Of a DNA stretch of 12,029 nt, positions 4,265 to 11,784 are shown in pieces; position 1 is the stretch's first letter, and the number at the start of each line of letters is the position of its first letter. Location: contig CAMHBN010000034.1 of assembly GCA_946183385.1 (NCBI GenBank), forward strand, positions 1 to 12,029, in the 5' to 3' direction. This DNA comes from an uncultured Ruminococcus sp. GTDB taxonomy: Bacteria > Bacillota > Clostridia > Oscillospirales > Ruminococcaceae. The translations under genes were made by a program, and so were the position numbers. The notes under the pieces were generated by a model that worked only from the letters and a program-made list of their open reading frames with translations, had not been told where the DNA came from and ran no database searches.

Positions 4265-4410
4265 GGACGCACACTGTGCGCCCCTACAGAATGAAGCCGC
4301 GGGTTGTTTTGTTATTATGCGGGACGCCGGGTGACTCCCTACAGTGTAGGGAGATGTCAGCGAAGCTGACAGAGGGTACGGGCGGCTGTTAGCCGCGGCG
4401 TCCCCTACAG
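4265..4410. repeat. Two hairpin elements (CTACA-tailed family) between ecfA1 and ecfA2
   Basis: The first copy is 4265-4289: an 8-bp stem (one mismatch) around a 3-base loop, followed by CTACAG. The second copy starts 57 bases later at 4322. It keeps the outer stem and CTACAG tail (4405-4410), but its loop is expanded by an extra 66-base insert (see the separate entry). The linker between them contains GCCGCGGGTT, which is shared with the 5322 array. The second copy ends two bases before the ecfA1 stop codon. Confidence 0.85.
4321..4404. repeat. Composite cloverleaf-like palindrome: outer stem enclosing three hairpins
   Basis: A perfect 9-bp outer stem pairs 4321-4329 with 4396-4404. Inside it are three successive hairpins with 3-base loops: 4335-4342 with 4346-4353 (8 bp), 4355-4361 with 4365-4371 (7 bp, loop GAA), and 4382-4387 with 4391-4396 (6 bp, loop GTT, sharing one base with the outer stem). 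The first inner hairpin contains CCCTACA/TGTAGGG, the same tail word as the main repeat family. This suggests one repeat inserted into another. No gene is visible here. Confidence 0.8.
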
Positions 4411-4412
4411 AG

Positions 4413-5264
4413 TTATTTCGCGGCGAACAGTTTCTGGATAGCCGCGACACATTCGTCCTCGGTGATGATGTCCTGCGGGATATCACAGCCCGCCTTGCGG
4501 AGCTCCCACGCGAGCTCAGTCACCTGCGGGACGTCGAGCCCTATCTCCATTACCCGCTCCACGTGCGAGAAGACCTCGCGCGGGGTGTCGTCCAGCGCGA
4601 CAGTGCCCTTGTCCATCACGACAACGCGGTCGCACTGAGCCGCCTCGTCCATATAGTGCGTGATAAGGACGATTGTTATGCCCTGCTCGCGGTTCATCTT
4701 TTTTATCGTCGCCATGACTTCGCGGCGTCCCTGTGGGTCGAGCATGGCTGTCGGCTCGTCGAGGATAATGCATTTCGGCTGCATGGCGATAATGCCCGCG
4801 ATGGCGATACGCTGCTTCTGTCCGCCCGAGAGCTGGCTCGGCGAGTGCTGGCGGTAGTCGTACATATTGACGGCTTTCAGCGACTCGTCCACGCGCCTGC
4901 GCATTTCCTCATAAGGCACGCCGAGGTTTTCGAGCGCGAACGCGACGTCCTCCTCGACCACCGACGAAACTATCTGGTTGTCGGGGTTCTGGAAGACCAT
5001 TCCCGCACGCTGTCTCAGCTCGAAGAGGCGGGACTCGTCGGCGGTGTCTATGCCGTCAACCACGACCTTGCCCTCCGTCGGGAGCAGTATCGCGTTGATA
5101 TGCTTGGCGAGTGTGGACTTGCCTGAGCCGTTGTGCCCGAGCACCGCTACGAACTCGCCCTCTTTTATTGTAAGGTCAATGCCCTTCAGTACCTCCGCGG
5201 GCTCGGTGTCACCGTCGGACGGGTAGCTGAAATGCAGACCGCTTATCTCAATGATGTTTTCCAT
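4413..5264 (-). CDS. ecfA1: Energy-coupling factor transporter ATPase EcfA1
   Basis: This 283-residue ABC ATPase is the partner of EcfA2 in the ECF importer motor. Motifs are Walker A GHNGSGKST (43-51), Q-loop in FQNPDNQ (91-97), LSGGQ (145-149), Walker B CIILDEP (165-171) and H-loop His203. FQNPDNQ is characteristic of EcfA1. The C-terminal VMEIGLDVPQV (about 238-248) parallels the same region in EcfA2. The frame is open further upstream, but the ATG at 5264 is chosen because AAAGGA lies five bases before it, the N-terminus MENIIEISGLHFSY matches the family, and upstream codons run into repeat DNA. It is the first ecf gene in transcription order, 139 bases after the methyltransferase gene. 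That gap holds two repeat elements and no clear promoter. Confidence 0.95.
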   Translation of the reverse strand: MENIIEISGLHFSYPSDGDTEPAEVLKGIDLTIKEGEFVAVLGHNGSGKSTLAKHINAILLPTEGKVVVDGIDTADESRLFELRQRAGMVFQNPDNQIVSSVVEEDVAFALENLGVPYEEMRRRVDESLKAVNMYDYRQHSPSQLSGGQKQRIAIAGIIAMQPKCIILDEPTAMLDPQGRREVMATIKKMNREQGITIVLITHYMDEAAQCDRVVVMDKGTVALDDTPREVFSHVERVMEIGLDVPQVTELAWELRKAGCDIPQDIITEDECVAAIQKLFAAK

Positions 5265-5321
5265 ATTATTCCTTTGCATATGGTGGGTGTTTGCGTAAAT
5301 GCGGGACGTTAAGCTGAACGC

Positions 5322-5402
5322 GGACGGCAAATGGTCGCCCCTACAGAATGTAGCCGCGGGTTTTGCGGTATATTTGCGGGCGCACAATGTGCGCACCTAC
5401 AG
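5322..5402. repeat. Two hairpin elements (CTACA-tailed family), 56-base period
   Basis: Copies are at 5322-5346 (stem with two mismatches and a wobble, loop AAT) and 5378-5402 (8-bp stem with one mismatch, loop AAT). They are 56 bases apart, start to start, and both end in CTACAG. The linker carries GCCGCGGGTTTTGCGGTAT. The second copy ends one base before the stop codon of the methyltransferase gene. Together they fill most of the gap between that gene and ecfA1. Confidence 0.85.
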
Positions 5403-5403
5403 G

Positions 5404-6267
5404 TCATTTCTGCCATATCGCCGTAGAGCCGCAGGGTAGGGTCATACCCGTGGACTGCACGGGCAAGCCTATCTCGTCGAAGCTGACCGCTCCGCCGAAA
5501 CGCTCCGTCAGCACGCTGCCGAGGATATATCCCATTACCGACGGTGAAAGCCCCGTCGTATAGCTGTTTATCAGGAAGAAGAGCGGCTCGTCCGAGAGCA
5601 CGCCCGAGCACAGCTTCACGAGGTCATACACGCAGTCCTCAAGCTTCCACACCTCGCCGCCGGGACCTCTGCCATAGCTGGGCGGGTCCATGATAACGGC
5701 GTCGTACTTCCTGCCGCGGCGTATCTCGCGCGCGATGAATTTCTCGCAGTCGTCCACTATCCAGCGTATCGGCTTTTCGGCAAGTTCCGAAGCCGCGGCG
5801 TTGTCGCGCGCCCACTGCACCATTCCCTTCGACGCGTCCACGTGGCAGACATTCGCGCCCGCCTCCGCACACGCGAGAGTTGCTCCGCCTGTGTAGGCAA
5901 AAAGGTTCAGGACGTTTATCTCACGTCCTGCACCGCGTATCTTTTCAGCCATAAAGTCCCAGTTGACTGCCTGCTCGGGGAACAAGCCCGTGTGCTTGAA
6001 GCCCGTGGGACGTATGATGAACGTCAGTGCTCCGTAGCTTATCTTCCAGCTCTCTGGCAGGCGCTTGCGGAACTCCCACTCGCCGCCGCCCTTATTCGAG
6101 CGGTGATAGTGACCGTCAGCGCCCGTCCACAGCGGGTCGTGCCTGTCGGTCTTCCATATTATCTGCGGGTCGGGTCGCACGAGCGACACCTTTCCCCATT
6201 TTTCGAGCTTTTCGCCGTCCGACGTGTCAAGTATGACATAGTCCTTCCAGTTGCTTGCTGTCCTCAA
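5404..6267 (-). CDS. Class I SAM-dependent methyltransferase, COG1092 / RlmI-like (probable rRNA methyltransferase)
   Basis: This 287-residue protein has the Rossmann methyltransferase core. Motif I VLNLFAYTGGAT (119-130) binds SAM, an acidic residue follows at the end of the second strand (VD, 143-144), and the catalytic-region motif is DPPSYGRGP (194-202). The TGLFPEQ segment (93-99) is typical of the COG1092 family, whose best-known member RlmI methylates a cytosine of 23S rRNA. The N-terminal PUA domain of RlmI is missing, as in many short clostridial homologues, so the exact target is not certain. The start is TTG at 6267, supported by AAGGAG eight bases upstream. That site overlaps the glmM-like stop codon, and the gap to that gene is only 12 bases, so the two are almost certainly co-transcribed and possibly translationally coupled. 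Confidence 0.88.
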   Translation of the reverse strand: MRTASNWKDYVILDTSDGEKLEKWGKVSLVRPDPQIIWKTDRHDPLWTGADGHYHRSNKGGGEWEFRKRLPESWKISYGALTFIIRPTGFKHTGLFPEQAVNWDFMAEKIRGAGREINVLNLFAYTGGATLACAEAGANVCHVDASKGMVQWARDNAAASELAEKPIRWIVDDCEKFIAREIRRGRKYDAVIMDPPSYGRGPGGEVWKLEDCVYDLVKLCSGVLSDEPLFFLINSYTTGLSPSVMGYILGSVLTERFGGAVSFDEIGLPVQSTGMTLPCGSTAIWQK

Positions 6268-6275
6268 TTCGTGTA

Positions 6276-6281
6276 CTCCTT
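6276..6281 (-). promoter_or_regulatory. Ribosome binding site that fixes the TTG start of the methyltransferase
   Basis: Read on the minus strand, TAAGGAG combines the TAA stop of the upstream glmM-like gene with an AAGGAG Shine-Dalgarno sequence. It lies eight bases before the TTG at 6267. The overlap suggests coupled translation. Confidence 0.75.
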
Positions 6282-10960: not shown

Positions 10961-10978
10961 TTCTATCCCCTCCTGTGT

Positions 10979-11464
10979 TTAGCCCCAACGGGTGGAGTGT
11001 CCGTGACAGATGGCTATCGCGAGAGCGTCCGCGGCGTCGTCGGGCTTGGGTATCTGCGCCAGTCCGAGGAGCTGACGGGTCATCTCCATGACCTGCTTCT
11101 TCTCGGCTTTTCCGTAGCCAACCACTGCCGATTTCACCTGCAAGGGCGTGTACTCGAATATAGGCACGCCGCGCTCGGCTGCCGACAGCACCGTGACTCC
11201 CCTTGCCTGTGCGACGTCAATGCCCGTCTTCTGGTTGTTGGTGAAGTAGAGCTTCTCTATCGCCATACACTCGGGTGCGTATTTTCCGAAGATGAACTCC
11301 ATATCGTGGTGGATAGCCTTCAGCCTCTCGGGGAAGGGCGTGCCTGCCTCGGTGAGGATAGCGCCGTATTCCACGGGAGTGAAGCGGAGCCCGTCGTAGT
11401 CGAGCACGCCGAAGCCGACTATGGCGTAACCGGGGTCAACGCCTAAAATACGTACTTTCTTCAC
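10979..11464 (-). CDS. ruvC: Crossover junction endodeoxyribonuclease RuvC
   Basis: This 161-residue nuclease resolves Holliday junctions by paired symmetric nicks. The catalytic acidic residues of the RNase H-like fold are in place: Asp10 in LGVDPG, Glu70 in CMAIEKLYF, and Asp143 and Asp146 in DDAADALAIAICH. The KSAVVGYGKAEKKQV segment (111-125) is also typical. The start is GTG at 11464, chosen because the conserved MKKVRILGVDPG begins there and AGGTAGGT lies four bases upstream. It is the first gene of the ruv operon, with a leader of about 100 bases from the predicted promoter at 11576-11604. No LexA/SOS operator was found upstream, although ruv genes are DNA-damage controlled in several bacteria. 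Confidence 0.96.
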   Translation of the reverse strand: MKKVRILGVDPGYAIVGFGVLDYDGLRFTPVEYGAILTEAGTPFPERLKAIHHDMEFIFGKYAPECMAIEKLYFTNNQKTGIDVAQARGVTVLSAAERGVPIFEYTPLQVKSAVVGYGKAEKKQVMEMTRQLLGLAQIPKPDDAADALAIAICHGHSTRWG

Positions 11465-11575
11465 AATGACCTACCTGTGTTCCGTTAAAATAACTGATAC
11501 AAAGCGGCGGGATTTGGTAATATCAGCAAACGATAATTCCGCGCATAGCCGCACTGTCTCATAATATACTTTATT

Positions 11576-11604
11576 ATTATACCACAGATGGAGCACACTT
11601 GCAA
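11576..11604 (-). promoter_or_regulatory. Sigma-A-type promoter for the ruvC-ruvA-sseB-ruvB gene cluster
   Basis: On the minus strand, TTGCAA (11599-11604) is followed by a 17-base spacer and a perfect TATAAT (11576-11581). A TG one base before the -10 makes it an extended -10 promoter. The predicted transcript start is near 11569, giving a leader of about 105 bases before the ruvC GTG. Confidence 0.75.
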
Positions 11605-11658
11605 CAATTTGTGCATTTTTATTTTGTTTTGACTAATTGTACGTTTGCAGAGCTCAGA

Positions 11659-11738
11659 TGTAGGGGCGGCGTTCCGCCGCCCGCCGTTATACCGACATGT
11701 TTGCCGCAACCTGATGTAGGGACGCGCATTGCGCGTCC
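11659..11738. repeat. Two hairpin elements in reverse orientation (CTACA-tailed family), 56-base period
   Basis: On the plus strand these read TGTAG then stem: 11659-11682 (8-bp perfect stem, loop TTC) and 11715-11738 (8-bp perfect stem, loop ATT). They are 56 bases apart. The inner base pairs are GCG/CGC and CGC/GCG on the minus strand. Orientation is opposite to all the other copies in the window. Confidence 0.87.
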
Positions 11739-11759
11739 GCAAGCGCACAAAAAACGGTG

Positions 11760-11784
11760 GACGACCAATGGTCGTCCCTACAGA
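11760..11784. repeat. Single hairpin element (CTACA-tailed family) upstream of chorismate mutase promoter
   Basis: A perfect 8-bp stem (GGACGACC with GGTCGTCC), loop AAT and a CTACAG tail. It ends 25 bases before the -35 box at 11810 and faces the opposite way to the two copies just before it. Confidence 0.87.

Follow-up and report, generated by a model that had tools for sequence, protein, structure and literature searches.

What keeps a hairpin paired when its stem changes from copy to copy? The question is raised by a 12,029-nucleotide stretch of an uncultured Ruminococcus sp. (GenBank assembly GCA_946183385.1, contig CAMHBN010000034.1, positions 1 to 12,029; hereafter the window), in which a preliminary description had noted eleven short palindromes with shared outer arms and a varied inner stem. 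With a probability that we put at roughly 0.78 from sequence comparison, these hairpins are repetitive extragenic palindromic (REP) elements with a GTAG foot, spread by a REP-associated tyrosine transposase (RAYT, or TnpAREP; a tyrosine HUH transposase), and fall into type classes that are also found inside the RAYT genes. Two observations carry this reading. The REPs are abundant, they fold, they stand in direct arrays and inverted pairs, and they hardly occur in genomes that lack a divergent RAYT. In most RAYT genes of this kind, matched, inverted, in-frame REPs sit around the HUH codons, and the types differ jointly between relatives.

Hairpins in the window and its home genome

Nine exact matches to TGTAGGGRCG-N(6-16)-CGYCC occur in the window compared with none in 200 shuffles, and all but the one at 5322 fold well, with z from -3.05 to -5.13 (Table 1). 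Of the eleven copies first described, these nine stand (the last starting at 11759, not 11760) and the one at 5378 is retained as a foot-side variant, but that at 4322 is a longer-stem relative that has been interrupted. The CTACA tail is present as described, and is the GTAG foot read on the opposite strand.

The home assembly (2.1 Mb in 334 contigs, 75% complete) has 238 pattern matches, 121 in one orientation and 117 in the other, compared with 1 for the reversed pattern that served as control. A sample of 620 kb, comprising 20 hit-rich stretches, 40 unselected contigs and the window, contains 163 copies of the 24-nt class, 74 of them distinct, compared with 3 in the reversed sequence. These counts exclude a longer REP class with the stem GGGACGCCG/CGGCGTCCC, which recurs at home loci such as L038, L044 and L046. 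All three inner pairs are formed in 85% of the distinct copies, compared with a mean of 18% and a maximum of 38% after the 3' arms have been shuffled; the finder requires at least six of eight pairs, which tilts the paired fraction somewhat upwards. The claim that the inner stem changes while remaining paired is borne out by this population, though not by the copy at 5322, which has decayed. The covariation proposed as a check on that claim is likewise in excess by these figures, but the independent events behind it are few because discrete classes are copied as units, and relatedness is uncorrected.

Stem variation is by class, and is not free or open-ended. Nine inner triplets (GAT, CAC, CGC, ACC, AAC, GCG, CAT, CCC and AGT) account for 155 of the 163 home copies, with GAT the commonest at 44, and the GGACG/CGTCC arms mainly accompany CGC, ACC and CCC cores. 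The core does vary within a constant frame, as had been noted, but it does so in these discrete steps.

Neighbours within 130 bp are inverted in 38 cases and direct in 32 among the 163 copies. The direct neighbours are spaced by 55-56 bp in 19 of 32 cases, and the inverted ones lie 44-48 bp apart, start to start, in 22 of 38, the commonest inverted pairing being ACC-CGC (11 of 38). REPINs, which Bertels and Rainey reportedly described in 2011, are said to be inverted REP pairs that act as spreading units. The home pairs share this inverted layout; unlike REPINs, they mostly combine two stem types. Adjacent pairs of the same type number 1 of 70 at home, where about 10 would be expected, a comparison in which copied pairs are not independent. 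A general avoidance of same-type neighbours was ruled out by genome G049, which has eight inverted AAC pairs of one type among the matches listed.

Matched hairpins inside RAYT genes

The PF01797 profile gives weak, divergent matches in REP-rich congeners. By a simple pattern, two in-frame REPs are present in seven of the nine genes first fetched, and profile A1, built from eight proteins with in-gene REPs, matches 28 of 60 Ruminococcus genomes, the home genome among them. What the home genome keeps of the RAYT is a 5' fragment, located where contig C140 ends; it carries an in-gene REP of GAT type. The best match of the profile in the PDB is E. coli TnpArep (4er8, E 2.2e-10), and REP_Tyr_transpos (NF047646) is the best NCBIfam family for all four proteins tested. 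The distribution of the hairpins follows this protein closely: at least five copies (five types together) are found in 25 of the 28 Ruminococcus genomes with a RAYT and in 1 of the 32 without (Fisher 1.5e-12, kinship ignored, as in all our genome-association statistics).

A wider set was taken from one scan as the best 80 of at least 513 confirmed relatives, with aligned-protein identity required before near-identical genes were merged. All sources together provide 104 full-length RAYTs. Their HuH motif is NH[IFV]H in 71 and DH.H in 30; in the WQ motif the W is nearly invariant and the Q is invariant in A2, and the Y motif is variable (YI..NNP, TNP, ENP). REPs lie on both sides of the HUH codons in 69 of the 104 genes, only before them in 8, only after them in 15 and on neither side in 12, and a REP is placed after HuH, between HuH and Y, in 84. 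The first in-gene REP is 120-129 nt upstream of HUH in 50 of the 74 genes that have both. The second, inverted relative to the first, is 39-63 nt downstream in at least 63 of the 74.

The two hairpins of a gene resemble each other far beyond expectation. They are identical in 34 of the 74 genes, where 1.3 would be expected and 5000 permutations gave at most 6, and their mean similarity is 0.94, compared with 0.54 when permuted and 0.66 when permuted within length classes. The in-gene finder demands a paired stem, which favours pairing and not the match from site to site. We then compared nearest relatives with differing REPs, 0.46 to 1.19 substitutions per site apart on a tree that excluded REP-coded residues: of 17 disjoint pairs, 14 have hairpins that match better within each gene than across the pair, 3 match equally and none matches worse, and in the three ties the difference is confined to the loop or to extra tail bases. 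Within genes, the stems of 69 genes with equal-length hairpins differ at 18 base-pair positions: at 12, both sides of the stem have changed and each copy is paired, whereas 3 (all in L120) pair in just one of the copies and the last 3 do not pair in either. L155, whose site-1 call is not a REP, was excluded from both of these tests.

Site 1 preserves the reading frame in 73 of the 74 genes, and site 2 does so in 66. The three residues encoded by the core have a pairwise identity of 0.12-0.27 (25 genes), and the surrounding V, G and P are constant. As these residues vary and the paired stems match, what is conserved is the fold and not the protein sequence; the genes are a clear example of nucleic-acid structure retained in coding DNA despite variation in the residues that it encodes. 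The earlier proposal that the folded form is what stays constant is supported. A RAYT-like protein with matching copies at its flanks had also been anticipated. The protein and the matching copies are there, but the copies are inside the gene: an in-gene REP is present in 33 of 33 full-length Ruminococcus RAYTs and a REP within 500 nt outside in 0 of 33, the corresponding figures for the wider set being 59 and 28 of 70.

The strongest alternative keeps the REP/RAYT system but gives the in-gene pair no function: the inverted copies would be held alike by RAYT activity or by gene conversion, and tolerated by loops of the protein. We think this somewhat improbable, yet it has to be taken seriously. 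Conversion between the two in-gene hairpins would account for their similarity even if they served no purpose, and we give it real weight. Against 4er8, site 1 lies in an unaligned stretch of the profile alignment and site 2 at a gapped one, the core-coded residues vary freely, and the model given in the text of Quentin 2018 (PMC6006769) places the variable insertion of TnpAREP subclass 2.4 away from the catalytic site. What argues for more than tolerance is that sites, spacing and frame are conserved across RAYTs of varied origin, and that two thirds of the differing stem positions are double changes that leave both copies paired. Drift alone should break the hairpins; a process that made palindromes and kept rewriting them would leave them intact.

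A variant of the in-gene palindromes was seen in L175, from a Bacteroidales metagenome-assembled genome, and in L181, from Algoriphagus: a GTAG foot stands at both ends, as in the 'double foot' REPs described in the text of Quentin 2018.

In-gene types, dispersed copies and their explanation

The RAYT type of each genome was assigned by eye from the in-gene REP listing, and five types were tested. Each is commoner where the RAYT carries that type, with P from 8e-6 to 4e-4 over all 60 genomes and from 4e-4 to 0.02 when only RAYT-bearing genomes are compared. The loop follows as well. In the four genomes whose RAYT carries AAC-TGY-GTT, the loop of AAC-stem copies starts with T in 80 of 80 (in-gene copies included), compared with 0 of 57 in 13 other genomes. 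At home, GAT is both the commonest dispersed type and the type in the RAYT fragment. In G028, which belongs to another family, the in-gene type is CGC; by eye, 46 CGC and 41 GCC copies were tallied among 99 matches listed (142 in total), often arranged as CGC-GCC inverted pairs. The identity tag suggested earlier for stem and loop survives as the label of a class, on the evidence of the five types and the AAC loop. A tag for each locus is not supported, because each genome has many copies of the same few types, and many species share them.

Two other links between gene and dispersed copies were considered and rejected. One was that dispersed copies are pieces of RAYT genes: when a 205-nt in-gene segment of G016 was compared with five genomes, every full-length match listed was at a RAYT gene, and the rest of the listed matches were short (at most 58 nt). 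The other was a hint of linkers shared between dispersed copies and the gene, which came from places picked for matching and was not borne out by the flanks of the 163 home copies.

TnpAREP proteins cut and join single-stranded REPs by way of the GTAG foot and the hairpin, with strategies that vary by group (Corneloup 2021, PMC8266576, in the text consulted). The REPs described here would most likely spread as single-stranded DNA too. Each stem/loop type would define a class that depends mainly on the RAYT lineage carrying it, so that the mixture of types in a genome would record its present and lost RAYTs. The text of Nunvar 2013 (PMC3686654) proposes that a RAYT turns first to the REPs that flank its gene, owing to coupled transcription and translation. 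REPs inside the gene would be the extreme of this cis-preference, and for that reason the in-gene pair may, with less certainty, be a master copy, the preferred substrate of the protein made from that gene. A class switch would then require both in-gene copies to be rewritten. A further idea, which we hold to be doubtful, is that the target of a RAYT is built into its gene as a label: the matched pair would be master substrate or self-binding site, and a new class would arise by joint rewriting of both hairpins. With the target built into the gene, recombination could not separate the enzyme from its REP class. In the boldest form of this idea, protein loops encoded by the hairpins would help to read the hairpin, and rewriting the label would rewrite the reader.

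Several observations weigh against the spread of REPs by cognate RAYTs. The home inverted pairs mix types (same type in 1 of 38), as do those of G028, and therefore one RAYT would need to act on two stems. The home RAYT is only a contig-end fragment, most home types have no RAYT in view, and the 44 GAT copies at home share no flanking sequence with the RAYT gene beyond the REP, being no more similar to the gene flank than the 119 others. Many copies lack a cognate RAYT elsewhere also (44 of AACGCC type in G060, 28 of CAT type in G007 and 40 of ACGGCG type in G016). The finder used detects no in-gene REP in the 12 full-length RAYTs of the last class above, and the REP_Tyr_transpos scores of 68-73 bits (all four proteins) fall under the curated cut-off of 80. 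Three RAYT-bearing genomes (G023, G055 and G072) have fewer than five copies of the five types; G014 (95% complete), in which no RAYT was found, has 11 such copies and 17 matches to the general pattern. The neglect of relatedness among genomes counts on the same side. Lost RAYTs could explain the surplus types, in line with what Nunvar 2013 argues for pseudomonads, and G014 is a candidate for such a loss.

It is improbable that selection at each locus instead maintains the hairpins as host RNA elements (attenuators, terminators or stabilisers of 3' ends). The window copies do occupy gene gaps, several only a few bases from a stop codon, and 108 of the 163 home copies lie outside crude greedy open reading frames (ORFs) that cover 90% of the sequence, a survey too crude to weigh much. 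Known REPs are often placed likewise (Di Nocera 2013, PMC3733652, in its main text). Yet the presence of the hairpins tracks the RAYT, both orientations are nearly equal at home, discrete types are common to several species, and no Rfam family fits (one match, far under the gathering score, was rejected). By the same crude survey, 55 of the 163 copies are mostly within ORFs, and between genes of the same direction 42 copies run along the genes and 29 against them. Some hairpins may nevertheless have been put to host RNA use. That they are ends or relics of ordinary IS200/IS605 insertion sequences is very unlikely indeed: the HUH superfamily is shared and some REP-bearing congeners (G009, G018 and G023) have strong PF01797 matches, but G030, G031, G033 and G039 have such matches with 0 REP matches, and G007, G010, G011, G012, G016 and G028 have 55-404 REP matches with no strong PF01797 match. 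The canonical IS200 (Y1) transposase was rejected as the mover on this ground, and the home genome has no PF01797 match at 1e-3.

The REP/RAYT reading places the hairpins among known systems. REPs inside tnpAREP genes are known from TnpAREP subclass 2.4 (Quentin 2018), which likewise combines an HUH protein, in-frame REPs in its own gene, a variable stretch between HuH and Y and REPs with a GTAG foot. The subclass 2.4 text describes insertions generally between HuH and Y, besides flanking REPs; here, a second, inverted, stem-matched REP precedes HuH in the 69 genes with REPs on both sides, and none of the 33 Ruminococcus genes has a REP in the 500 nt beyond its ends. As in Pseudomonas and Stenotrophomonas (text of Nunvar 2013), several REP classes per genome share one frame and their abundance follows the cognate RAYT. 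Exceptions to the match are read there as RAYT loss or switch ('orthoswitch'). The REPs of that account flank the gene, whereas the cognate REPs described here are inside it, as a pair that differs jointly between related genes. The GTAG REP super-family of Di Nocera 2013, as its main text presents it, has in common the GTAG foot, the short palindrome, dimers, the intergenic location and some in-frame gene insertions; its RAYT genes are flanked by REPs or terminal inverted repeats, and a word search of the main text found no mention of Ruminococc or Clostridi. Neither the listings of a search of openly available literature nor the main texts consulted describe a pair of stem-matched REPs around HUH, its joint switching, agreement of in-gene types with dispersed ones, or these repeats in Ruminococcus.

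How new REP classes originate is an open question, as is the way in which a RAYT keeps to its own REPs when hundreds of similar ones are present; the text of Nunvar 2013 leaves the mechanism of class switching to speculation only. Genes in which two matched REPs flank the active-site codons make the question testable, as the type is stated twice and can be checked on dispersed copies.

Window features and accompanying repeats

The window has a GC content of 57%, and its genes, named by reading ORFs without database search, are mostly on the minus strand: an energy-coupling factor (ECF) transporter set, a methyltransferase, phosphoglucosamine mutase, ruvB, ruvA and ruvC. Table 1 gives the hairpin copies.

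Table 1. REP copies in the window, with positions counted from its first nucleotide.
Feature	Position	Strand	Basis
REP, CAC type, core CACAGTGTG, TGTAG foot at right end	4265..4288	-	exact pattern; z -3.36
Longer-stem REP, GGGACGCCG (4321-4329) ... CGGCGTCCCCTACA (4396-4409), other palindromic element in loop	4321..4409	-	read from sequence
Decayed REP, ACC-like (core ACC-ATT-TGC), inner pairs broken	5322..5345	-	exact frame; z -0.02, no better than shuffles
REP, CAC type, foot-side variant TGTAGGTGCG (base changed near foot), 56 bp from neighbour	5378..5401	-	
REP, CCC type, core CCCTTTGGG	7767..7790	-	exact pattern; folds
REP, CCC type, core CCCATCGGG, first in direct array of three, spacing 55-56 bp	9437..9460	-	exact pattern; folds
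REP, GAT type, core GATATCATC, stem equal to that of the in-gene REP of the home RAYT fragment	9492..9515	-	exact pattern; folds
REP, CAT type, core CATTCCGTG, T-G pair beside loop	9548..9571	-	exact pattern; folds
REP, GCG type, core GCGTTCCGC	11659..11682	+	exact pattern; folds
REP, CGC type, core CGCATTGCG, left half of inverted pair (REPIN layout)	11715..11738	+	exact pattern; folds
REP, ACC type, core ACCATTGGT, right half of inverted pair	11759..11782	-	exact pattern; folds

Other home-genome loci hold long-stem copies without interruption. The loop of the interrupted copy contains a second dispersed palindromic element, GATGTCAGCGAAGCTGACAGAGGG, at 4352-4375, and exact copies of this element were seen at seven further loci: L041, L205, L208, L215, L226 and L233 in the home genome and L254 in G016. 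Runs like aactcagaactcagagctcag precede several home REPs (for example L038 at 8533 and 15329, and L048 at 5567), and are perhaps another simple repeat that attracts or accompanies REPs. Outside the genus, G034, from another family, has 17 copies of a 25-nt class, GGGGCGATTCACGAATCGCCC, on contigs C1, C4, C8, C16 and C45, and no PF01797 match. Short runs of GCCGTTAGCC / GCCATTAGCC units, and a TGAGCCGTTAGCTAACGGCTCA palindrome, are found near gene ends in the window, at 4193-4232 and also at 2459-2480.

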